IMG/VR virus record: IMGVR_UViG_3300025093_000019
Coordinates: 1 to 64,000 of that record
DNA: 64,000 nucleotides
Strand: one strand, 5' to 3'
From: a virus
In this document: in pieces, positions 3,550 through 47,061 of the stretch
How the letters are laid out: every line of letters starts with the position of its first letter
How positions within the stretch are numbered: the stretch's first letter is position 1
Notes under the pieces: model-generated
The model's input: only the letters and a program-made list of their open reading frames with translations
What the model was told of the DNA's origin: nothing
Database searches by the model: none
Program-made: the position numbers and the translations under genes

Positions 3550-4518
3550 TTAATTCATTACTTTCATCATCCATGGGAACGCAACAAAGTCTGGTCTGTT
3601 CTCATGAGCTTCACTTGCAGGAGTACCTGATACTGGATCAATTGTAGTAGTTGCTGTAGATCCTGCGTGATTGTGATCACCATTTGGTTGAATAGTTTCC
3701 ATCGCATCGGTATCACCTGTACTTGGACTACTATCAACACTTCTAAAGGAAATTACACCATTAGCAGTACCAGCATCTTTTAATTCTATTGCATCATGAG
3801 AGTGCTGACCATCAGTTACAATATTCAATGATGTTGATGCCGTGTGAGTGTGAGCAGGAACAGCAGTTTGAGCGTCTGTAAGAGTAACACTATTAGCACC
3901 AGCACCTGAACCAATATTTTGGTATTCAGGATCTCCATCATCAAAACCAGCAACAAATTTCTTTCTAAGATCCGGAAGACTAAAGTTCACCCCCGAACCA
4001 CCATAGTTATACCCAATAACTGCAAATAGATCCGGATACAATGTATTATCTAAAGTCTGTCCTTCACACTTCAACCATTTAGCATTTGGAGGAGTTGATA
4101 CAGGATACAAGATCATACTTCCTATAGGCATATTTTCCGTTGCCGCATTTTCTATATTTACAATGTCCCCTTGAATATTAGTTATATCACCTTGAATACT
4201 TGTTATTGTATTCTGAATGATATCAATTGTATTCTGAAAATAAGTAGTAACAGTGTCAAGTGCAGTCTTGATCATTGATGGTCTAACATACAACGCAAAG
4301 CCATTTGCATTATTGTCAATACCATTATCATATTCATTTTGAGTTGCAGTCTCTACAAGACCTTGTTGTGTTTCTGTTGCTGTATCAGATACCTCTACTT
4401 TAAATGTTACTGAATCAGCAAAGTTTCTCATCACCTGTTCCGTCGGCTCATCCTGCGAAAGGAATCGCTCTGTATTCACGGTTGGTGTAAAAAAGTAATT
4501 TCTACTTTGGATAGCCAT
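3550..4518 (-). CDS. Tail fibre with phage tail collar domain
   Basis: This 322-residue protein has an N-terminal attachment region, a short coiled-coil-like stretch of ITSIQGDITNIQGDI repeats (about residues 100-125), and then a phage tail collar domain: 'MPIGSMILYP', 'WLKCEGQTLDNTLYPDLFAVIG' as two elements, and 'FSLPDLRKKFVAG'. The rest is rich in His-x-His pairs (AHTHTA, QHSHD, DHNHAG) as in long tail fibres, where such histidines bind metal along the fibre axis. The C-terminus (NRPDFVAFPWMMKV) matches the usual ending of tail collar fibres. Probably a trimeric receptor-binding fibre. It lies between the collagen-like gene and other tail genes. Confidence 0.85.
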   Translation of the reverse strand: MAIQSRNYFFTPTVNTERFLSQDEPTEQVMRNFADSVTFKVEVSDTATETQQGLVETATQNEYDNGIDNNANGFALYVRPSMIKTALDTVTTYFQNTIDIIQNTITSIQGDITNIQGDIVNIENAATENMPIGSMILYPVSTPPNAKWLKCEGQTLDNTLYPDLFAVIGYNYGGSGVNFSLPDLRKKFVAGFDDGDPEYQNIGSGAGANSVTLTDAQTAVPAHTHTASTSLNIVTDGQHSHDAIELKDAGTANGVISFRSVDSSPSTGDTDAMETIQPNGDHNHAGSTATTTIDPVSGTPASEAHENRPDFVAFPWMMKVMN

Positions 4519-4975: not shown

Positions 4976-7387
4976 TTAACAGCTTGAGCAATCACCTCTA
5001 TTAGTCGCAGTGTTCTTCTGCTCCGGACATAGGCAACCGCAGTCCATAATAATATCATGAATCTTAGCAAGGATTGCACATGCATCATGTAAGAAACACA
5101 TGTGATCATCCTGAACTAATTTAGATCCAACAGTGTACAGTTTGTTTCTATAAGCCATTCCAAGATATGTCATATACAATGGAACCAACTTATTAAGAGT
5201 CATTCGTGCAAACTCACGATGTTCTTCTGGTGATCCATCACAACGCTTGCAACAAGGATCTGAACAAGAGCACATTATCTTATCCATAAGGATGTGATAA
5301 CACTCTTGAAGAGCACATGTTTCAAATGCAGAAAAGCTATGAACAACTTCACCTGTTTCAGGATCCTTCATCTCAAAGATGTAAATACCATCTCCAGGTA
5401 ATTCAAATTCAAATGTATTGTCTTGAGACACATCCCATAATACATCATCAATAACAACGTCTTCCGGTGCTCCGCATTCCAATGGTTTTACAGATACCAA
5501 ATATTCTTCTACTTCGCACACTGGAGGACGATGTACATGCCAATTGTTGCATGAGTCTTTGTAAATATCAAAAGGCTCACACACATCAAAGCAAAGGATA
5601 CGCTTGGTGTTGCATCCCGGTAGGCAAACTTCTGCACAATATTTACCAGGAGGAAGACCAGGAACATTGATAATAATAGCATCAAGCTCAGTGTCATTTG
5701 CAACACTATAATCAACAGTAAATACCACTTCTTGAGTGACTTGGTTTACAACTTGGAATGTTATCACTGTTGGGTAAGCAGCAGGATCTATAGTTCCACC
5801 AAGATCAAAAGAGATTACTTCACCAGGTTTAATGCAATCAGGAGCACATGAAGGACCTGTTATGCATATATTGAAATGCGGACAAGCAGGAACTGCTACA
5901 GCACTAAAACAAATATCACACGATATTGTTCCGCATGGTCCAGTAACCTGAAGTTCACATGTTCCTTGTTCAGCTAAAGTAGGAGTGTATTCCAAATCAA
6001 TAACTCCGGAGCCTCCTGCCGGTACATTAATTGGAGAAGAAGAAATGATTGAAAGCCCTGTTGTCGTGCACGATCCTAAAGCAAAGCTAAAGTCATGTGC
6101 ATCTGATCCTGTATTTACGACAGTAACTTGAAACTGGGTAGTGTCTCCAACTAATGTTAAAGGAAGTTCTACCGGACATGTCTCAAGCTCAAAACTTGCA
6201 CAATCTGAACCAACTAATGTAAAAGAATTGACAATCCACTCCGGAGCATTAACACCACAAGATTCTTGAAGAGTAACAGTATAACATCCTGTTAATCCAA
6301 TTGGAACTTCCCCTGTACTTGTAGCACTCATGTTTATTACCTGTCCTATAGCAGTGCTTAAATCAACACCAACTCCATCTTGGACATCCAACAATACTGG
6401 ATCTACTAAAGGATCACAAGGATCTAATCTATAACAATCAAGAGGAGCAGGCTCTTCTGTCCAAATAGACAAAGGAATACTGAGTGCTTCAGACACACTA
6501 TGATTTGGACCACCATCAGTTGTTACATCTATCTGACTAGGAGTAAATGAAATATATCCATTTAAAGGATCATAAAAATGTGCAGCGTCAAGACTAGCTC
6601 CTGATGGGTTTGGTCCTTCTATAAATGTCCATGTAGATCCAGAATCAGTAGATCTTAAAAACTGTTCTCTCGTACCTGTAACCCACATGTTCACTCCATC
6701 TGGCCTCCAAGTTAAGTGATTTAATAGGTCAAGATCAGGATCTGGAGATGAATGAACTATTGGAAAAGTTGTACCTCCATCGGTACTCTTATATATATTG
6801 TTTGCTCCAATAGCTACAATTATCTGTTCATTATCAGAAATGTAGATACCTCCAATTCCACCTTGAAGTCCTGTATATAATAAGGTCCATGAGGATCCAC
6901 CATCTGTAGTTTTCCATACTTCAGATTGAAGTGCACCGAGTTTAGTAACACCTACAACACCAATTAAATCATTTATGAAATGTATTGAACTTGCATCTGC
7001 ATTTAGATCTTCTACACCTCCTGGTGTGGCGTATCCAACAATATTATAGTTATCACCACCATCAACCGATTTAAAAATAGCACCACCCTTTTTTCCCGTT
7101 ACATACGAAATTTGATTATCAACAATCCATATTTCAGGATATTCATCATCGTAAGCAGTTGCATAGTTACCTCCTGCTGCTGTCCAAGTTGCACCAGCAT
7201 CAATTGATTTGTAAATTTGATTGTTTCTACCAACAGCAATCACTTTATCTGGATCCTGTGGAAAAGCCATTACATCTAAAAAACCATCAATTGCTGCTGC
7301 AACAGAAACATCAATCCAGGGAAGCGTAAAATTATCTAATCTTCTAACTTCTCCTGCGGATCTAGTAGTATAATACGTTCTTATCAT
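4976..7387 (-). CDS. Virion adhesin with Asp-box beta-propeller
   Basis: In this 803-residue protein the first ~310 residues contain repeated Asp-box (BNR) motifs: IYKSIDAGATW, IFKSVDGGDNY, VWKTTDGGSSW, IYKSTDGGTTF and FLRSTDSGSTW, plus a degenerate sixth (DVTTDGG). They are spaced about 40-50 residues apart, as in sialidase/YCF48-like propellers. A stretch rich in Cys and Pro follows, with an Ig-like/CARDB-like segment (FQVTVVNTGSDAHDF, residues about 415-500), more beta domains and a Cys-rich helical C-terminus with CSCSDPCCKRC. No catalytic sialidase residues were identified, so carbohydrate binding is likelier than hydrolysis. Its place among tail fibre genes suggests receptor recognition. 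Confidence 0.75.
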   Translation of the reverse strand: MIRTYYTTRSAGEVRRLDNFTLPWIDVSVAAAIDGFLDVMAFPQDPDKVIAVGRNNQIYKSIDAGATWTAAGGNYATAYDDEYPEIWIVDNQISYVTGKKGGAIFKSVDGGDNYNIVGYATPGGVEDLNADASSIHFINDLIGVVGVTKLGALQSEVWKTTDGGSSWTLLYTGLQGGIGGIYISDNEQIIVAIGANNIYKSTDGGTTFPIVHSSPDPDLDLLNHLTWRPDGVNMWVTGTREQFLRSTDSGSTWTFIEGPNPSGASLDAAHFYDPLNGYISFTPSQIDVTTDGGPNHSVSEALSIPLSIWTEEPAPLDCYRLDPCDPLVDPVLLDVQDGVGVDLSTAIGQVINMSATSTGEVPIGLTGCYTVTLQESCGVNAPEWIVNSFTLVGSDCASFELETCPVELPLTLVGDTTQFQVTVVNTGSDAHDFSFALGSCTTTGLSIISSSPINVPAGGSGVIDLEYTPTLAEQGTCELQVTGPCGTISCDICFSAVAVPACPHFNICITGPSCAPDCIKPGEVISFDLGGTIDPAAYPTVITFQVVNQVTQEVVFTVDYSVANDTELDAIIINVPGLPPGKYCAEVCLPGCNTKRILCFDVCEPFDIYKDSCNNWHVHRPPVCEVEEYLVSVKPLECGAPEDVVIDDVLWDVSQDNTFEFELPGDGIYIFEMKDPETGEVVHSFSAFETCALQECYHILMDKIMCSCSDPCCKRCDGSPEEHREFARMTLNKLVPLYMTYLGMAYRNKLYTVGSKLVQDDHMCFLHDACAILAKIHDIIMDCGCLCPEQKNTATNRGDCSSC

Positions 7388-33577: not shown

Positions 33578-36500
33578 TTAGTTGTGCGACTGTCTAAAAT
33601 GAGTCAACACTGATTTGATAAAGATACGACTTTTTGTTTTCCATTCTATTCGAATTTTGATCCACCTACCACGGAATCTACTGTCAACGTCGTATATATT
33701 ATTTGTAGGATTTTGTAAGTCTTGAGTTCTTATTATTGGAAGCTTCCATAAATTTTCAGTATATGCAGGATCTCTCCAATAACTAGCTTCTGTTCCTTCT
33801 ATCCAAGGAAAGTGTTCTGATATCTGATGTTGTGTTTCGTAAACAACACGATAAATGTTATCTGAGCTTGTACTTAGTTCTAGATTGTCAAACACCTTTG
33901 TAATATCTGCTGCTTCATTAACTACGAATTCCACAAAACATAAATCCGGATCATCATTGTCAAAGAATGTAGTTGCATTTTCGTTTCCTGCAATTTCATA
34001 GATGTCTTTCAAATAACCAACTGATGTTATAATTGGATCCGGATTCATACTAGGAAATGACAATTTACCAAACGCAAAGAAGTCTTCATTGATTGTAAAC
34101 CTCATTGCTGAATCAGCTGTTCTTTCACCATGGAAAGCTCCTTGAAGTTCATTAAATACTATTGTTCTTCCAACATCTTTTATAGAGCAATCATCTAGTC
34201 TTTCAGGGCTTCCATATATCCAAGTGAAATATATGTCTTGATGTTTTCTATCGTACACACTAGTAATACCAGTTCTACAAACTGGGTTATCTAAAAAGAA
34301 TTCAACACGATCACTTTCGTCATTATTAAACTCACAAAGCTCGTGGAGTGTCGATCGATAACCTTGCATGTCGGACAATACCTCCATTTGCATATTACCT
34401 TTCATTCTCCAAATCTTTCTCTTATTAAAGTCAACACCATATATTGCAATCTCTGTTGAAACAATTGACCACTGATGCTGAGATCCAACATAGTCTGTTA
34501 AGTTCTGATGTTTAGAATCCAGTATATCCCCAGTACCAAGTAATAACTCACCTGTAGATGATCCTTGATTAAGTACAGCTTTTTCGTTTACAAAATGCCT
34601 GTTAACCCCTTCTTCTTGAATAGAAAACAATGCATTATTTAAAACCTGTAGAGATTTTATTTCACCCATTCTATAATCATACTCTTTCAGTGCAGATAAA
34701 TCGATAACACGATATGCATCTAAGAATGATCCTGGTCTATGCTTATTGCTAAACATAATACCAACAGGTTTGTTTTCCGGGAAGAAAGGTACCTCTAAAT
34801 CTATACCATTATAAAACTTGCTTGACAGAACTTTATTATAACCCGGATTAAGCAACTCAGACTCTCTTTCAATGTCTTTTACAGCTTGCTCGTAAACATC
34901 TGCATATGAACCTGGATAAAACTTATTGATGAAATCATCCAATCTCATCTCAGTATTTATTTTGTTTTCAGATATAAAAGAGTAGCAAACACCAAAAGAA
35001 TATAGTCTTTCTCCAATTAAGCCATCAAACAATCCAATGTCTATACCACCAGCAGCTATATTTCCTCCGTCGTCTTTTACTCCTGGTCCATACTTAGGAT
35101 TGTACATTTGCTTGTGCCATGTTCTTTGCAAAAAGCAATCTCCTTTGTAGAATATTTGATCATTAATCAGTCCATTATTAGCTTGAACGTCAGCTATACG
35201 ATAATACTTTGATATCTTAAAGTAAGTTGTTGCTTTTACATCATACAAGTCTGTTATATCAAAACTAGCAGGATCTACACTTGTGTTATACAAGTTAATC
35301 ATTCTATAGTCGTATTGAATGTCTGCATCTATGCCTATATAGCTCATATATGCCGATTCAAGATTAATCAACTCAATAAACTTGGTATCAGCTAAATTTT
35401 CTGCTAAAAAGTAATACATTGAATCGAAATCATTTCTTGATCCTTGATTAAAATAAGATGTATAGCTATTGTTGTTGGCTTGTTCCCATGGTGCTATATT
35501 ATGAACATCATGAAGATATTTTATCCCAGTACTAAAATTATATGTTTGATCTTGATAAAAATAATCCTCTTTACTGGGATCTATATCAGTAAATCTTTGA
35601 AAATCAATTGTTCCAAATGGATAAACTAGTGCTTTTGGTATCCCAAGTGTTTTTACAAAGAAATGATCAGATGAATGAAAGCCCCATTTGCCTTCTACCT
35701 GTTGAGTGTGTCTTTTAATGTGGTTGACAAAAGTGAACACCTGAGTAAACAGGTCACTAAAGTCATACTTTGTTTGATAAGGAAAAGAAGCTATTCTATT
35801 AGGTTGATTTAATATTCCTTTTTCTTCTTCAAACATTGGAACTACATCCTCATTTCTTTTTTCTATTTGTGGATATTCACCAATCAAAAAGTAAAGACCT
35901 CTTGATGAGGCACCATCAGCTGCATTATAGCATGGTAATGTAAATCCTTGATAAAGAAGTGTTTCTTGACGCTCTGCTCTTACAATATAGAATCCGGTTA
36001 CATTATCTAAAATGTATTGTGGTATAGATGCAAAAGCATTTGTAACGTCAAACTGAACACCCATTACATTAATTAAGTTTCCAGAAACTGTTGGAGACAC
36101 GTTGATGTTCGGAAATCTATAAACACCACTTGTGTTTGGCGTACCACCTAGATTCCAATCATCACGACCAGCAATTGGGAATGCCTGTGTCTCTCTTCCG
36201 TTCTTTAAAACATAGACAATGCCATAAGCATACGCTTCACCTCTAAAATATCCAGTTCTATTATAGACATTTATTTCGTTGTTATAGATTCCTACATCTC
36301 CATTTCCATTTCTATGCTGTAACTGCAAAGTAGCATTGTGACTTGGAACAATCAGTTGAGCAAAATTAAATAGATCTGTTATTGCTTCGTCACCATAGTC
36401 TGTAGTATCAAAAAGATTTCCTGCAAAGTATCTGTTCTCTAATTGAGTGTGCGTTAAAGCACCATCATACTGAGGTTTGGTTTTTATTATTTCATCTAAT

Positions 36501-37501
36501 CCAGTTTCAAAAGTTCCTTCGTATCCTGTAATCTCTATATCAAGAGTAGATAAATTTGGATCTATTGAATAAAGCTTATCTATGATTCCATATTCAACTG
36601 TGTCACTAAAGTAGTACATGTAGCCTATCTCTAGATAAGAATATGTTGTATCAATATTTGAATACCTAAGCTTTATACTTTTGTTGGTTTCTTTGCCGCC
36701 TTCATCACCATGATGTCTAATACCTTCAGACAAATAAGTTCCTTGAGTTATTTGTATTGCATTTGTCTCAGTGAAAAAAGAAGTCTTGTCAAAGTTTTCT
36801 GTTGAGTATCTAGCAAAAAATATCCAGTTTCCTGCACGAGTTTTTCCAGCCTGTCCAAGGCCTTGAAAAGAAACATCAGCATGTATATCAGATTCATGCA
36901 AAAGGTTTACTGCATTTGGAAATGAGTTGTCCCAATACCTTCTTTTGAATGATGTACAATTTCCATCTTGATCAAAACCAGTATTGTAAACTCTAACCGG
37001 CAATCCTTTCTGAGCCATATATAAGCTTACAGATCCATCGTAATCCTCTCTTGCAAATATCTCAACTTGATTTTCACAATCAAAACCTAGCAAATCTGTT
37101 CTAAAGTATTGAGATAGTGAGTTCTCATCTCTAGGTGTATTTGGTCCTGTAAAATTAAAGAGTGGGGAATATTGTTTTGCAGTTCCCCATCCCGAGAAAG
37201 AACAATCTTGATTTACCAATGCTAATGGTGCAGGATAGCATCCTATTTCACTTTGACCAGTACTAGGGTTTGTTGATGCTATATAGGCAACACCGTTATA
37301 CTCACAAACTCCAACAGGAACAAAACCATCTTCTAAACTAAATTTTGCTTCGGATCCACCGACATTAGTAAGAACGGCAGTTTTTCCATCAACCTCAATA
37401 TAACGCATGTTTTGGATTCTCCTAGAAGTATCCTTTGGTATGATCAATAAATCAAGATCTCTATTATCTCCTTTATGAAACTCGTTTATACTAGTTGGCA
37501 T
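33578..37501 (-). CDS. Tail stabilization-like protein (P22 gp10/crAss Tstab type)
   Basis: This 1,307-residue protein is mainly beta-strand with many aromatic residues. The start resembles stabilization proteins of crAss-like phages: a short leader, 'IPKDTSRRIQNMRYIEVDGK', then 'LTNVGGSE' and 'GVCEYNGVAYIASTN', where a list of genome-segment-like 'n.r' motifs is followed by a propeller-type fold. These proteins plug and brace the portal-tail channel. It follows ring/tail tube-like genes, the expected position. The sequence shows no metal-binding or catalytic motif. The assignment rests on N-terminal resemblance, size and order. Confidence 0.6.
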   Translation of the reverse strand: MPTSINEFHKGDNRDLDLLIIPKDTSRRIQNMRYIEVDGKTAVLTNVGGSEAKFSLEDGFVPVGVCEYNGVAYIASTNPSTGQSEIGCYPAPLALVNQDCSFSGWGTAKQYSPLFNFTGPNTPRDENSLSQYFRTDLLGFDCENQVEIFAREDYDGSVSLYMAQKGLPVRVYNTGFDQDGNCTSFKRRYWDNSFPNAVNLLHESDIHADVSFQGLGQAGKTRAGNWIFFARYSTENFDKTSFFTETNAIQITQGTYLSEGIRHHGDEGGKETNKSIKLRYSNIDTTYSYLEIGYMYYFSDTVEYGIIDKLYSIDPNLSTLDIEITGYEGTFETGLDEIIKTKPQYDGALTHTQLENRYFAGNLFDTTDYGDEAITDLFNFAQLIVPSHNATLQLQHRNGNGDVGIYNNEINVYNRTGYFRGEAYAYGIVYVLKNGRETQAFPIAGRDDWNLGGTPNTSGVYRFPNINVSPTVSGNLINVMGVQFDVTNAFASIPQYILDNVTGFYIVRAERQETLLYQGFTLPCYNAADGASSRGLYFLIGEYPQIEKRNEDVVPMFEEEKGILNQPNRIASFPYQTKYDFSDLFTQVFTFVNHIKRHTQQVEGKWGFHSSDHFFVKTLGIPKALVYPFGTIDFQRFTDIDPSKEDYFYQDQTYNFSTGIKYLHDVHNIAPWEQANNNSYTSYFNQGSRNDFDSMYYFLAENLADTKFIELINLESAYMSYIGIDADIQYDYRMINLYNTSVDPASFDITDLYDVKATTYFKISKYYRIADVQANNGLINDQIFYKGDCFLQRTWHKQMYNPKYGPGVKDDGGNIAAGGIDIGLFDGLIGERLYSFGVCYSFISENKINTEMRLDDFINKFYPGSYADVYEQAVKDIERESELLNPGYNKVLSSKFYNGIDLEVPFFPENKPVGIMFSNKHRPGSFLDAYRVIDLSALKEYDYRMGEIKSLQVLNNALFSIQEEGVNRHFVNEKAVLNQGSSTGELLLGTGDILDSKHQNLTDYVGSQHQWSIVSTEIAIYGVDFNKRKIWRMKGNMQMEVLSDMQGYRSTLHELCEFNNDESDRVEFFLDNPVCRTGITSVYDRKHQDIYFTWIYGSPERLDDCSIKDVGRTIVFNELQGAFHGERTADSAMRFTINEDFFAFGKLSFPSMNPDPIITSVGYLKDIYEIAGNENATTFFDNDDPDLCFVEFVVNEAADITKVFDNLELSTSSDNIYRVVYETQHQISEHFPWIEGTEASYWRDPAYTENLWKLPIIRTQDLQNPTNNIYDVDSRFRGRWIKIRIEWKTKSRIFIKSVLTHFRQSHN

Positions 37502-37512
37502 TTTTTAATAGT

Positions 37513-40500
37513 TTATTTAAATCCAGCACCTCCAAACATTTTTTGCATCTGCATATAGTTTATCAATCCACGTTCACCAGGACTTTGAACTGCATCAGTA
37601 TTTACACTTGCAGACTGTACTTTTTGTTGTTCTGCTGGTTGTTCTTCAACAGGAACTTCTTCTCCCTTGCTTTCTGCAATTGTTTGAGATCCAGCCCTTG
37701 TTGCCGTTTTTTGTGCGGCAACTTTTTCAGCCTGAATAAGAGTAGGAGTGATTAAGCTTCCTGCTGAAATATCATCAATTGATCGACTACCTATTGCAGT
37801 AAATTCGTCAAGTTTTCTTGGTAACAAATACTCTCCAGTATTAAACATGTTTCTTCCTAAAGCGTCTTTAAGACCAGGATTTACAATTTTATTGTCTATT
37901 TGGAGTAATGAGTTTTGCCAATAATTTTGAGGTTGAGAAACCATTTGATTTACATTTATTCTCTGGTTTAAAGGCAAACTTAAATAGTGTTTTCTAAATT
38001 CAGGATTACTCATCATTTCTGCTCTTGACGGAATAGATTTTGTTGCAGCGTCTTCTACAGCTTCTCTTGTAATTCCTGTCGGAAGACTTTTTCCTTTATT
38101 TGCACGAGTCATTAAATTTCCTAAGCTGTACTGAGATGCTGCGGCCTCTGTTAAAGGAGTTGCTTGATACATTAAATTATCTCCATATTGAGATGCGTAT
38201 TTAGCAAGTTCATCATTATTTTTTAATGCTTGTTGCCACATTGCATCAGAAGGATTAAATTGTCCACTAGCTATTCTATCTTTTAATTCTTGTAATGATT
38301 CTTTTCCTGTAAGTCTAACAAGATCTTTTCTTTTAAATAATTGACTAGGTTTAGCAACTCCTCTTAAAACTTGATTTACTCCAAGCTCTTTAGCTGTTGC
38401 ATAACCAAGCATTTTTGACGCTCCTGTAAGTTCACTAGCACCAGTAATACCACCAATAAGGTTAGCACCGGCATATCCTAAATCTTTTAATCCTTCAGCG
38501 TATTCACCTTTGTCAAAATCATCAGCAGCATCACTCATACTAACGCCTGCTTGAGTTGCATAATGTAATGGATTAAATACTTTAAAAGCGTCATTTATCC
38601 ATGACTCTGAATCTCCAGAAATATCATATAGATCTTGAGTAGTTACTCCATATCTGTCTGCAACCTGTTGTGCTTTCTCTGGATCACTAAGCCAAGCTTC
38701 TTGACCAACCATTGCACCTTCTCCTTGCATCCATTGAGATCCTGTTAATATAGGATCATCCATAAATGCTACAACTTGCTGTCCAGCTTTTTTGTACCAT
38801 GGCATATCATCCCATATCTTTTGCTCTTGTGCCTGGAAGTTTTGTATTTTTTTCTGTTGCATTTCTGGTGCGTACATAGCTTGAACCAATGCAACATCGT
38901 CATAATCTCCTGTTTCCGGATTAATAAAATCATCTCTACTCAGCCCTAATTCATCTTCCCACAAAACTCTATTTGTGTAATACTCATTCATTGCACTTCG
39001 AACAAATGCCTGTTGTTCAGCTCTAACTTGTTGGGGTGTTTTAATTTGAAAATCAAATGTATTATCAAAACTGCTATCAACAATGTTTGTCACGTCTGTT
39101 GATTCTGCAACTACAGGCATTGAATCATAACCTAATTCTATATTAGGCTGCTGATCACGTTGCTGCTCTCTTTCAATCCTGTCTGCCTCTTCCAAGAGTT
39201 TAGCACCTTCAATAGTTGGACCTCCAGCATAAGCTTCATCCCTTAGTTGTTGAGCAGTTTTTGAATCGGTTCTAGTAAGTAATGGCGGGGCTGGAGCAGT
39301 GTAGGTTTCTTCACCTGTTTCTTGTTCTTTTTGACGTTGCATAAGATCTCTAGCTGCTCTTTCTGCTGCTAGTTTTCTACTGGCTATTCCTTCAGCACGT
39401 TCACCAAATATTCTTTCAAGACCTTCTTCTGTTCCAAAATTAGATTTTATGAGTTCATTGAATGCACCTGATTTAGTAAAGCCCATATCCATGTACTCTT
39501 GAATCTTTCTCATGCCTCTCTCATCATATTTTGCTTGATGATAGTCATATACAGGCTGGAACATTTCATCTATTCTAGCACGATCTGCACCGGTTATTTC
39601 AGCAAGTTTGTTACCTCTATATCCATGTTGCATTATTCCTTCAGATATGTCAGCAACTTCATAGGCACTCAAGGATCCGTCTTCATTCATTACAGGGAAA
39701 TAATTCATATCCCTATACTCATTGAATATCTGATCCATAAAAGGAACTTCACCAGTATATCCTGATTCGTATTCTGCTAGTTGATCTTTTGTAAATGTAA
39801 TCTTAGGCTTAATTTTACCGCCATCTTGAAAGTTGAACCGAGCTCTTATCCCTGGCTTTATTTTGTTTATTCCTTTTTGATTTTTGCCATCAGCTATATT
39901 GTAAGTTCCAGTTAACCCTACAGAAAATTTAGGGAAGTTTTTTGATATACCTCCGAAAGCTTCTCCTTTCCAATATTTATTTGGCTGATAAGGAATAATA
40001 GCTCCAATATTTCCTTCTAAACCAGATGGAATATGTCCTGCACCCATTAAACCAAAGATTCCTTCTGGATTTGGATTAGCAAACATGTATTTGTACATAT
40101 TACTTTCTTTACCTCCTCCAAACTGGTGATTTAACCCAATGTCTATTGGAGTCCTTTCTTCAGGTAAGTTGGCCTTAGTATTTAAAAGTACATTCTTTAT
40201 ATTCTGTTTTGGAGGATCTGTTGGTCCACCATCTTCCATATAAACTTTACCACCAAACTTCCATCCTTCTTGAGGTTGTTCAAGTTCTGGCTGTTTGCGA
40301 TAATCAACTGTAATTTCTTCTCCTGCTCCAATCTTATCAATTGGCATAATAAAATGCTTGTTACCAATTTTTGTAACCCTAGCATTTGGTGTCTCGGAAT
40401 GATTATAGTTTTGTCCTAAATCTGTTGTTGGCCAATTGTCCTCATGGGTAGTTCCGAAAAATCCATCATTTACTGATAGATCTTCACCAGCAAACAATCC

Positions 40501-40551
40501 ATTTCCATGAATTTGAGAAGGTCCTACATATGTCTTTGTTCCCTTTTTCAT
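37513..40551 (-). CDS. Virion protein with N-terminal SET lysine-methyltransferase-like domain
   Basis: In this 1,012-residue protein, residues 8-85 match a compact SET domain: 'SQIHGNGLFAGEDL' (S-adenosylmethionine-binding G-x-G-L-F-A), 'NYNHSETPNARV' (N50-H51) and 'IGAGEEITVDYR' with Y84 as the conserved Tyr. SET proteins transfer methyl groups to lysine side chains. The linker has Gly-Gly motifs (FGGKVYMEDGG, FNFQDGG), and the remaining 900 residues are helical with a hydrophobic Gly/Ala-rich stretch near 700-740. Its place among large virion proteins suggests it is injected and could methylate host or phage proteins. It starts inside the previous stop (TAATG). The domain call is firm; activity and target are not shown. 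Confidence 0.8.
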   Translation of the reverse strand: MKKGTKTYVGPSQIHGNGLFAGEDLSVNDGFFGTTHEDNWPTTDLGQNYNHSETPNARVTKIGNKHFIMPIDKIGAGEEITVDYRKQPELEQPQEGWKFGGKVYMEDGGPTDPPKQNIKNVLLNTKANLPEERTPIDIGLNHQFGGGKESNMYKYMFANPNPEGIFGLMGAGHIPSGLEGNIGAIIPYQPNKYWKGEAFGGISKNFPKFSVGLTGTYNIADGKNQKGINKIKPGIRARFNFQDGGKIKPKITFTKDQLAEYESGYTGEVPFMDQIFNEYRDMNYFPVMNEDGSLSAYEVADISEGIMQHGYRGNKLAEITGADRARIDEMFQPVYDYHQAKYDERGMRKIQEYMDMGFTKSGAFNELIKSNFGTEEGLERIFGERAEGIASRKLAAERAARDLMQRQKEQETGEETYTAPAPPLLTRTDSKTAQQLRDEAYAGGPTIEGAKLLEEADRIEREQQRDQQPNIELGYDSMPVVAESTDVTNIVDSSFDNTFDFQIKTPQQVRAEQQAFVRSAMNEYYTNRVLWEDELGLSRDDFINPETGDYDDVALVQAMYAPEMQQKKIQNFQAQEQKIWDDMPWYKKAGQQVVAFMDDPILTGSQWMQGEGAMVGQEAWLSDPEKAQQVADRYGVTTQDLYDISGDSESWINDAFKVFNPLHYATQAGVSMSDAADDFDKGEYAEGLKDLGYAGANLIGGITGASELTGASKMLGYATAKELGVNQVLRGVAKPSQLFKRKDLVRLTGKESLQELKDRIASGQFNPSDAMWQQALKNNDELAKYASQYGDNLMYQATPLTEAAASQYSLGNLMTRANKGKSLPTGITREAVEDAATKSIPSRAEMMSNPEFRKHYLSLPLNQRINVNQMVSQPQNYWQNSLLQIDNKIVNPGLKDALGRNMFNTGEYLLPRKLDEFTAIGSRSIDDISAGSLITPTLIQAEKVAAQKTATRAGSQTIAESKGEEVPVEEQPAEQQKVQSASVNTDAVQSPGERGLINYMQMQKMFGGAGFK

Positions 40552-41303
40552 TATGCAACATTTCTAGACATTTTTACTTTAGGAACAATGTTATGTAGGA
40601 GCATGCTTATTTCGTTCATGTCGTCACGAGAAACATCTCTAAAGTTTCCTTTTGCTTTTGCAACATAGTGACCTAATCGATCGTTCAAGTACATATATCT
40701 TCCATCTGGAATCAATCCATTCATATAGTCCTCAAAATAAAGTTTAGTCATGCAATACCAAAAGCAAGCTTCTTGATGTCCATCTCTAATCATTGGAAGA
40801 CCTTCGTGATCTACAGCTACTCCTATGTAGTCTATATCAACAGTGTATTCTTGACTGAATGTTCCAGGATCATCAAGGTTAAATCGAAGATAAGCTCCAT
40901 CCCAATCATATTTTGGAACAGAACACTTATTTCTATAAACACTCAAGATCCTATAAATGTTACAAGGTAGATATGCTTTATTATGCTTCACAGTAACTTT
41001 TACATTTCTGTACTTCACAAAAGCATCATACATTGCTATCTCATCTGTCTCACATTCACCACACCATTCCGCAATATCATATATGTCAAACTCTTTACCT
41101 TTGACGTTTCTAGATATTCTTGCGGCTACATTTCTTACAGAGACATATTTACCTGAGTTAATATGCTCTACAGCTTCAGCAGAAAAACTCTTTTGAGAGC
41201 AATCTCCTGTACCGGGAACATTAATATCACAACTGCTTGCAGATTGTCCAGTGACATTTAAGTTTACCGTGTTGGCTGGATTATTGAAACTACTATGACT
41301 CAT
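40551..41303 (-). CDS. Probable tail tube/ring protein of the crAss-like head-tail connector
   Basis: This 250-residue protein starts at MSHSSF (ATG 41303), one base after the preceding stop; an earlier ATG at 41324 overlaps. After a Ser/Asn/Thr-rich leader comes a conserved-looking core: 'KVTVKHNKAYLPCNIYRIL', 'YTVDIDYIGVAVDHEGLPMI' and 'EACFWYCMTKLYFEDYM'. This resembles the tail tubular/ring proteins of crAss-like phages, related to P22 gp4 and T7 gp11. The position between the HU/IHF-like gene and the large virion genes fits. Medium confidence because no alignment was run. Confidence 0.55.
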   Translation of the reverse strand: MSHSSFNNPANTVNLNVTGQSASSCDINVPGTGDCSQKSFSAEAVEHINSGKYVSVRNVAARISRNVKGKEFDIYDIAEWCGECETDEIAMYDAFVKYRNVKVTVKHNKAYLPCNIYRILSVYRNKCSVPKYDWDGAYLRFNLDDPGTFSQEYTVDIDYIGVAVDHEGLPMIRDGHQEACFWYCMTKLYFEDYMNGLIPDGRYMYLNDRLGHYVAKAKGNFRDVSRDDMNEISMLLHNIVPKVKMSRNVA

Positions 41304-41304
41304 A

Positions 41305-41757
41305 CTATTCGTATTTATGACCACTCTTTATTAAATGGTACATTTTTGTTCTTAACCTAGTATTAAATCTTAGACGATAATGCTTCTTGTTTCTTTTTGT
41401 TATTTCTTGGTTTATCTTTAATCTTGGAGTAAAGACTCTACCATCAGATTCAATATCATAAATATAATCAGAACGATTTTCATTTGCTGTATTCGATACT
41501 TTTAAATAACCAAATCCAGGAGATGGAAAAACAAATATTTCATTGTTCTCAATCAGATCTGTAGATAGTTTACTTAAAAAAGAATTGAACACATGTGTTG
41601 CAATACTCTTTGCTTCTGATTCTGTTTTTGTTCCTAATAGATCTTTATATGAACTGAAGGATCTCTTTTTAAAGTTGTCTAAACTTAAAACATCAGACAA
41701 GCTATTTATCTTGTATGCATAAGTAGCATCATCATTGACAAATTGCTCATATCTCAT
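41305..41757 (-). CDS. Possible HU/IHF-like DNA-binding virion protein
   Basis: This 150-residue basic protein starts at MRYEQFVND (ATG 41757), one base after the upstream stop. 'SEAKSIATHVFNSFLSKLSTDL', given here as positions 49-70, is a helical pair followed by 'NEIFVFPSPGFGYLKV', which resembles the HU/IHF transition into the beta-arm (a..a..a...i..aL..g..v.i.gFG.f.v). The C-terminal third is Lys/Arg-rich. An IHF-like gene next to the tail genes is a hallmark of crAss-like phages, which supports the idea. The typical proline of the arm tip is not evident, so this is a tentative call. Confidence 0.45.
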   Translation of the reverse strand: MRYEQFVNDDATYAYKINSLSDVLSLDNFKKRSFSSYKDLLGTKTESEAKSIATHVFNSFLSKLSTDLIENNEIFVFPSPGFGYLKVSNTANENRSDYIYDIESDGRVFTPRLKINQEITKRNKKHYRLRFNTRLRTKMYHLIKSGHKYE

Positions 41758-45594: not shown

Positions 45595-47061
45595 TTAAAC
45601 TCCTGGCTTATAGAGTTCAGCAAATCCAAATGGATTTTTCAAGCAAAGACCTGTCTCAGACAGAACTTGTACTTGGTATCCATCAACTGAATTTGAAGCA
45701 AATTCTCTACGTCCAGTTCCTCCTGGAGAAGCCATACCATCGATCACTTTCTTCACATATCGACGATCATCTGATCCGTTTCCAAGTGCGATTAGATCTA
45801 CGTTTGCATCTCCACCAATTGTGTTTCCAAGTGAAACAAAGAATCCACGGTAAGACTCAAGGTTTGTTCCATAGATGTCTTTTTGTTGTGGTCGCCATGC
45901 AGCGTCCATTGCTTTGTTCCAAGCTACAACAATACGAACACCAGCCATTTCATAGCTGTTAAACGCAACTTTCACACCTTTTTCTTGATCACCTTTTGAC
46001 ACAAACAATGGCTCAGGATTGTACTTGAACACATCACGCATCAATCTCTGGAAGTTCCAGATAAATGCTTGACCTCCCATTACAAACACCTCAGTCATTC
46101 CGTCATTGTTTGCAAGAAGCTGCATATTCTGCATAATGTTCTCAATTGTCTTGATGTTCAAGTTGTTATACTGGAACTTCAATGAAGCATCCCCTTGAGC
46201 AACAAGTCCATCACCTTGAACGATCTCACGGCCTTTAAGGTCACGAAGATATACGTTCTCATTTGCATCGATGGAAGCACGTCCAAAGATCAATTGGTTC
46301 TCACGAGCATAAGCCCAACGACGCAACATTTCCATTTCTTGTTGCTTGAACCATAATTTCTGACCATTGTGCTCAACCCACAATACTGTGTTTTGTGCAG
46401 ATCCAGAAATTGAGAATTGCATACGCTGAATTGTCATGTAGTTCGTATGCCACTCAGGATAAGTATTTTTCTCATATCCTGTTTCAGAAAGCTCAGGAAA
46501 CGCTGTATAGCTGAAACCAACTTCTTTACCAACATCTAGTAAAGATGGATCAACAAAAGCTCCAACAACATTGCTAACAAGCTTACACTTGTACACCCAT
46601 TGTCCGCTTGTGTTTTCAACTGGATACTCATCCATGATTTGGATGATTGTTCTTCTATCTCCAAGCTCTAACGTATCGTTAGGAGAGAAGAAGTTTGTAT
46701 CCAAAGTCAACAAGAAAACAGATCCTCCTGTTGCAGTGATGATTCCTGGTGTTGACGTTGCAGCACCGGAAGCGTCAGTTACAGCAGCAGTGATTGTTCC
46801 TTTACGGAAAGGATAACCTTTCAATGCCCATTGGAATTTCCTGTTACCAATTACCTTGAAGTCTGATGTTTCCATTCCAGGCTTCAATCCTTTTTTCTGA
46901 TACCCTCTACGGGCAAGATAAGACGAAAACGCTGTGAAGTTATCCTCGAAAAGATTCACGACGTTTGTTGCAATCTCGGGGCGAGTCAATAAAGCTGCCG
47001 CAAGAGAGTTCGTCATTGTAGTCCTATTAGCATCATATGTGCCAGTACCAATAATTTTCAT
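45595..47061 (-). CDS. Major capsid protein
   Basis: This 488-residue protein begins MKIIGTGTYDANRTTMTNSL and has 'ATNVVNLFEDNFTAFSSYLARRGY', with N-terminal helices, central 'NTVLWVEHNGQKLWFKQQEMEMLRRWAYARENQ' (positions about 218-250) and 'ASNSVDGYQVQVLSETGLCL' near the end. Length, position after portal and probable scaffold, and the codon use of a highly expressed gene fit the HK97-fold capsid protein of crAss-like phages. No cleavage site was identified, so maturation cannot be judged. Confidence 0.75.
   Translation of the reverse strand: MKIIGTGTYDANRTTMTNSLAAALLTRPEIATNVVNLFEDNFTAFSSYLARRGYQKKGLKPGMETSDFKVIGNRKFQWALKGYPFRKGTITAAVTDASGAATSTPGIITATGGSVFLLTLDTNFFSPNDTLELGDRRTIIQIMDEYPVENTSGQWVYKCKLVSNVVGAFVDPSLLDVGKEVGFSYTAFPELSETGYEKNTYPEWHTNYMTIQRMQFSISGSAQNTVLWVEHNGQKLWFKQQEMEMLRRWAYARENQLIFGRASIDANENVYLRDLKGREIVQGDGLVAQGDASLKFQYNNLNIKTIENIMQNMQLLANNDGMTEVFVMGGQAFIWNFQRLMRDVFKYNPEPLFVSKGDQEKGVKVAFNSYEMAGVRIVVAWNKAMDAAWRPQQKDIYGTNLESYRGFFVSLGNTIGGDANVDLIALGNGSDDRRYVKKVIDGMASPGGTGRREFASNSVDGYQVQVLSETGLCLKNPFGFAELYKPGV

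Follow-up and report, generated by a model that had tools for sequence, protein, structure and literature searches.

A crAss-like phage encodes, within its tail module, a 1012-aa protein whose first 86 residues form a genuine SET domain of minimal size. The gene (37513-40551, minus strand) lies in a window of 64,000 nucleotides, the whole stretch of DNA analysed here, which comes from a virus contig of 79,289 bases, and its product consists of the SET domain (40294-40551, minus strand) followed by about 920 aa without a recognised family. It is chiefly from eukaryotes that SET lysine methyltransferases are known; viral and phage SET domains have been described before, and so has a packaged viral SET protein. 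No report of a SET domain in a phage virion, tail or ejection module was found in the open-access literature searched, within the terms used, and the only paper found there that pairs "SET domain" with "crAss-like" refers to immunoglobulin "C2-set domains". The location of SET in a crAss-like tail module, and beside ejection genes elsewhere, suggests that phage infection involves a level of protein methylation as yet unexplored, for which methyl-lysine on virion or early-infection proteins offers a concrete place to look.

A minimal SET domain at the start of a large protein

The region 40295-40551, in which an earlier note had recognised a SET-like domain from the sequence alone, corresponds to the first ~85 codons of the minus-strand ORF 37513-40551, and in that frame G16-N-G18-L-F-A, N50-H51-S52 and G77-E-E-I-T-V-D-Y84 all fall at the residues named there. 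Scanned alone, residues 1-98 match the Pfam SET family (PF00856) at residues 36-84 with 26.5 bits (E 9e-6), against a curated cut-off of 22.4 bits; a six-frame search also exceeds this value (24.2 bits), and the full-length 1012-aa protein falls just below it (22.0 bits). A SET profile of 40 rows, from which the crAss-like rows were omitted, gives 76.3 bits with the real 98 residues and at best 8.3 bits with 2000 shuffles of them, so the match is not due to chance. In a phmmer search the best PDB match is vSET of PBCV-1 (E 0.0028), and the alignment pairs N50-H51-S and GEEIT-x-x-Y84 with the motifs of that enzyme.

Structure prediction agrees with the profile search. The AF2 model of the domain, made from a 46-row alignment, reaches a pLDDT of 86.2 and a pTM of 0.77, and among the PDB matches listed all are SET proteins, with Z scores of 10.0-11.4 over 74-88 residues. 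These include COMPASS (6chg, Z 11.4), MLL1 with AdoHcy (7u5v, Z 11.3, 1.5 A over 80 residues), vSET (3kma, Z 10.7, rmsd 2.0 A over 80 residues) and SMYD3 with SAM (5ccl, Z 10.3). For the S-adenosylmethionine site, the feature by which the earlier note had proposed to judge the model, the ligand-free prediction superposes on SETs bound to SAM or AdoHcy (e.g. 4ypu, 5ccl and 7u5v), a superposition that bears on the cofactor pocket only indirectly. The domain is compact: a stretch of 32 residues separates the second G of GxG from the NHS asparagine, where vSET has about 52 as read from the alignment, and owing to these ~20 missing residues substrate binding may need a partner.

Conservation was followed in the same alignment, which holds the window and 45 of 92 SET rows kept at <80% identity; of the confirmed SET stretches, the analysis covered 80 of the 102 from a six-peptide scan and 80 of the 127 from a scan with EEIT[VL]DY, and loci L086-L094, L246 and L247 were left out of the analysis. 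In the GxG cofactor-loop motif (residues 16-18; 40498-40506, minus strand), G16 and G18 are invariant. N50 and H51 of the NHS motif (40399-40404, minus strand), which pair with N-H-S of vSET, are present in 46/46 and 45/46 rows, and Y84 (40300-40302, minus strand), the presumed catalytic tyrosine, which aligns with the tyrosine of GEEITISY in vSET, in 46/46, although the scan patterns contained EEIT[VL]DY or GEEITVDY and therefore partly forced Y84 in those rows. These three residues had been set beforehand as the test of the domain, and they are also kept in L082, reached via the muzzle protein, and in L212 and L229, reached via the capsid protein, all of which were found without SET motifs, as well as in relatives just 34-52% identical to the window domain. 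The crAss-like SETs are under purifying selection, with synonymous change near saturation (pS 0.54-0.78 and pN 0.10-0.33 across all 21 pairs of seven domains).

Directly downstream of the domain lie a C-flank, PELEQP (residues 88-93; 40273-40290, minus strand), in which P88, E91, Q92 and P93 are invariant in 8 rows and which is common to crAss-like SETs and some lone phage SETs, and the Gly-Gly linkers FGG and EDGG (residues 100-109; 40225-40254, minus strand). The fused proteins of relatives (L002, L003, L004, L097 and L212) have comparable xGG linkers after their SET domain.

The gene slot between ring protein 1 and the muzzle

The phage is crAss-like, as Crassvirales muzzle and ring proteins are present. 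Ring protein 1 of the tail barrel (R1; 40551-41324, minus strand) matches PF24228 (CrAss_Ring_1) with 81 bits and the muzzle protein (MUZ; 33578-37501, minus strand) matches PF25731 (crAss_MUZ) with 165 bits, the cut-off being 27 bits for both, and the portal, terminase and capsid genes match head-and-packaging PHROGs. The SET gene sits between R1, upstream, and MUZ, downstream, which agrees with the previous description of a SET domain N-terminal to a large protein and places that protein in the tail module; from this gene position we infer that it is probably a virion protein. Since R1 and MUZ are adjacent in more distant crAss-like phages, crAss001 and phi14:2 among them, the window has a gene inserted at that junction. 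Further along the operon, after the cargo region, lies a single ORF of 6829 aa (7779-28268, minus strand) with GGDYDIDA around residue 4542, which we take to resemble the DxDxD loop of crAss-like virion RNA polymerases. Near the operon end are found an 803-aa protein with YCF48/BNR-like repeats (4976-7387, minus strand; 32 bits) and a Phage Tail Collar domain protein (3550-4518, minus strand; 63 bits).

The major capsid protein (MCP; 45595-47061, minus strand; phrog_11589) served to find relatives without any SET bias. A single-sequence scan with MUZ was empty, and alignment-based MUZ and MCP scans yielded relatives; R1, MUZ and SET HMMs were run on all 38 records gathered via the capsid protein. 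SET directly follows R1 in seven of them (L004, L082, L207, L208, L209, L210 and L212, with L207 = L097, L209 = L003 and L210 = L002 being the same contigs under two labels), and R1 adjoins MUZ without SET in six (L217, L220, L222, L225, L226 and L239). L214 has a different gene after R1, and the visible part of its product, 654 residues, shows no SET; this slot protein (L214:8085-10046, cut) starts close to a YADGG linker, so the slot may be open to modules of other kinds. The contigs of L211 and L230 end within R1, and 21 of the 38 records show neither R1, MUZ nor SET and are uninformative. No SET was found elsewhere in the records behind the SET-less loci or in the complete genomes of crAss001 and phi14:2. 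The capsid tree places all eight rows with SET in the slot, window included, within one 14-row part (branch support 86/90, below the starred level), which also holds L214 and five unknowns. A simple reading, although not proven, is that SET was gained once and subsequently lost or replaced.

A more distant crAss-like phage, L229, whose capsid is 70% identical, has its SET as the C-terminal domain of a 645-aa protein (L229:15091-17028), with no R1 or MUZ found; the domain order is thus reversed with respect to the window, and NH and Tyr are retained. Its N-terminal part looked peptidase-like by eye and has no Pfam or PHROG match.

At the R1 junction (TAATG, 40549-40553, minus strand) the R1 stop overlaps the slot-gene start by one base, an arrangement found in 8/8 SET-bearing relatives, window included, which suggests that translation of the SET protein is coupled with that of R1. 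The slot proteins share SET throughout, and the remainder ranges from almost nothing up to about 920 aa: the seven complete genes encode 1012 (window), 909, 708, 621, 568, 344 and 109 aa, the gene of L208 being cut by the contig end. By blastp, matches of the window protein to L002, L003, L004 and L082 are confined to about the first 110 residues; L003 and L004 look alike beyond SET. The slot gene of L082 is a lone SET of 109 aa, so fusion to cargo is not needed. A tblastn search with the 1012-aa protein gave no match in 50,697 phage records, no relatives of the full protein were confirmed in viral contigs, and residues 98-1012 had none even at E 10; such proteins may diverge fast.

An outer-membrane barrel in the fused part, suspected at residues 103-248, which look beta-rich by eye, was dropped as an idea; AF2 run without an alignment gave this region a pLDDT of 33. 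In L003 and in L004, a stretch of ~50 residues resembles the family phrog_2307, "L-alanyl-D-glutamate peptidase" (E 5e-6 and 2e-5), but also phrog_5115, "ferredoxin", with DUF3597 below its cut-off, so that a peptidoglycan link is suggestive only; the stretch was not found in the window protein. In L212, the SET-fused protein (L212:16525-18651) contains three GGS-L/I-Y-x-MM-like motifs, one of them at the extreme C-terminus, which possibly represent a docking or linker element.

SET genes beside ejection genes in other phages

The statement in the earlier note that SET domains are rare in phages was too strong. Viral contigs contain 102 SET-coding stretches confirmed in one pattern scan and 127 in another (the sets overlap), and 11 phage records match SET at E up to 10; standalone SETs are widespread in phages. 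A scan of genome contigs gave 45 loci, whose SETs are distant and lie for the most part in contigs of bacteria.

A scan of genes next to SET covered 80 of 213 neighbour proteins. Among 40 further SET records with <80% mutual identity, 21 have a phrog_598 "DNA ejection" gene and 23 a phrog_578 "head closure Hc3" gene. We take these families to be P22 gp7 and gp10, respectively, hence the label "P22-like". Wherever phrog_598 is present (21/21), it is encoded downstream of SET and on its strand. The distance to the SET match stays within 150 bases in 18 cases and amounts to 201, 554 and 566 bases in the remaining three; because the 40 records are mutually related, these are not 21 independent events. 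The match is absent from the remaining 19, several of which are short fragments and others different phage kinds. In L008, L012, L016, L033 and similar loci, SET is C-terminal in a ~215-310-aa protein, often just before the "DNA ejection" gene, and the N-terminal half of some of these proteins (e.g. L130) looks cupin-like by eye. In the podovirus MW202744, a SET gene annotated as PBCV-1-like clusters with capsid, stabilization-protein and terL genes. The lone SETs of two other phages lie outside virion modules: the SET-matching gene of P-SSM7, a T4-like cyanophage, between nrdB and talC, and that of phage Ps15 among small genes annotated without function. The recurrent position of phage SETs beside genes for injected proteins suggests that some phages methylate proteins at assembly or right after entry.

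Possible function and comparison with known systems

SET enzymes need S-adenosylmethionine, which is found in the cytoplasm; the SET domain can therefore work only in the producing cell or once it has been injected. We propose that the tail module encodes a stripped-down, catalytically competent SET-type protein-lysine methyltransferase, which would probably be translated in step with R1 and which, in most members of the lineage, would form the N-terminal domain of a protein with a quickly changing C-terminal part. This protein would most likely be packed into the tail or capsid along with other cargo and reach the new host by ejection, its SET domain being perhaps small enough for threading and refolding, and would there draw on the S-adenosylmethionine of the host to methylate one lysine or a few in a host protein or in co-injected phage proteins. 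The individual parts of the proposal differ in strength. The domain is very probably catalytically active. Carriage in the virion is moderately probable: the long variable fusions, the tail slot and the ejection neighbours elsewhere speak for a protein carried along with the tail, and against this counts that phi14:2 and crAss001, whose virions have been analysed, have no SET gene. Action after entry rather than during assembly is close to evenly balanced, with a slight lean towards entry. The ejected-cargo reading also has to accommodate that known crAss cargo genes come after MUZ, that the lone SETs of P-SSM7 and Ps15 lie outside virion modules, and that 19 of the 40 SET records lack phrog_598. 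The whole proposal, a virion-carried, ejected and active SET methyltransferase, is accordingly tentative, its chance of being right standing a little short of even.

The main rival is methylation at assembly. Here SET would act in the producing cell on ring, muzzle or ejection/cargo proteins during tail assembly, tuning their stability or charge; its target might even be its own C-terminal part, and any copy in the virion would be an assembly leftover. The overlap with R1 in all eight loci, the lone SET of L082 at the same site and the ejection genes next to SET in every record that has one would all suit such an enzyme, as would the cytoplasm, where tails are built and S-adenosylmethionine is at hand. 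For an assembly enzyme, however, the long, changing C-terminal fusions of 6/7 complete slot genes would be superfluous, and kin with the same R1-MUZ tail manage without SET. We regard this course as a genuine possibility, if a doubtful one. Alternatively, SET might be an accessory gene for host takeover or anti-defence that has lodged in the tail operon, expressed late, left unpackaged and directed at host proteins of the producing cell. Its patchy presence among crAss-like phages and the lone SETs in accessory regions of P-SSM7 and Ps15 fit this explanation, but the fixed slot, the conserved overlap with a structural gene, the long fused parts and the recurrent ejection-gene neighbour make it improbable. 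Finally, that SET has lost catalysis and persists as a small module with a binding or capping role in a virion protein, as its shortening relative to vSET and the weaker C-terminal copy in L229 might indicate, is decidedly improbable given the low pN relative to pS and the retention of N50, H51 and Y84 in divergent relatives.

The proposal of an ejected methyltransferase can be extended to unrelated tailed phages. Phages of the crAss-like and P22-like podovirus groups might repeatedly have placed minimal SETs in ejection modules, so that a methyltransferase would enter with the genome and modify host or phage proteins within the first minutes. It would be a bacterial-virus counterpart of the packaged vSET, and in its crAss-like form it would be physically joined to a protein that is ejected; at this breadth the idea is rather unlikely.

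Among known tail-module proteins, the crAss001 cargo proteins gp45 and gp46 resemble the window protein in being large, and they are expected to be ejected, according to PMC10172136. Their genes come after MUZ, whereas the SET gene precedes it and so does not occupy the cargo gene position. The same study describes crassviruses as storing cargo proteins in the capsid and tail barrel for ejection, and in the crAss001 model these are extruded partly unfolded (PMC10172136).

The closest sequence families are the phage SETs of phrog_34170 and phrog_28741 (25.7 and 20.7 bits with residues 1-98), which have the same short SET form and are of "unknown function" in PHROGs; many relatives of this type are the proteins with a C-terminal SET beside a "DNA ejection" gene described above, and lack the long tail-slot fusion. 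The best viral structural match is A0A218ML49 (E 1.1e-8, 36% identity), a "SET domain-containing protein" of 971 aa from an uncultured virus in BFVD, which by its database listing is also large. The best-known counterpart is vSET of PBCV-1 (A612L; 1n3j and 3kma), likewise viral and minimal, with aligned N-H-S and GEEIT-x-x-Y motifs. It is a free protein of a eukaryotic virus that acts on histone H3, whereas the window SET is a phage domain, usually joined to a long partner, and is shorter still. In PMC7019647, vSET is called the smallest histone methyltransferase, and PBCV-1 is said to be a virus that "encodes and packages" it in the virion (see also PMC3089700).
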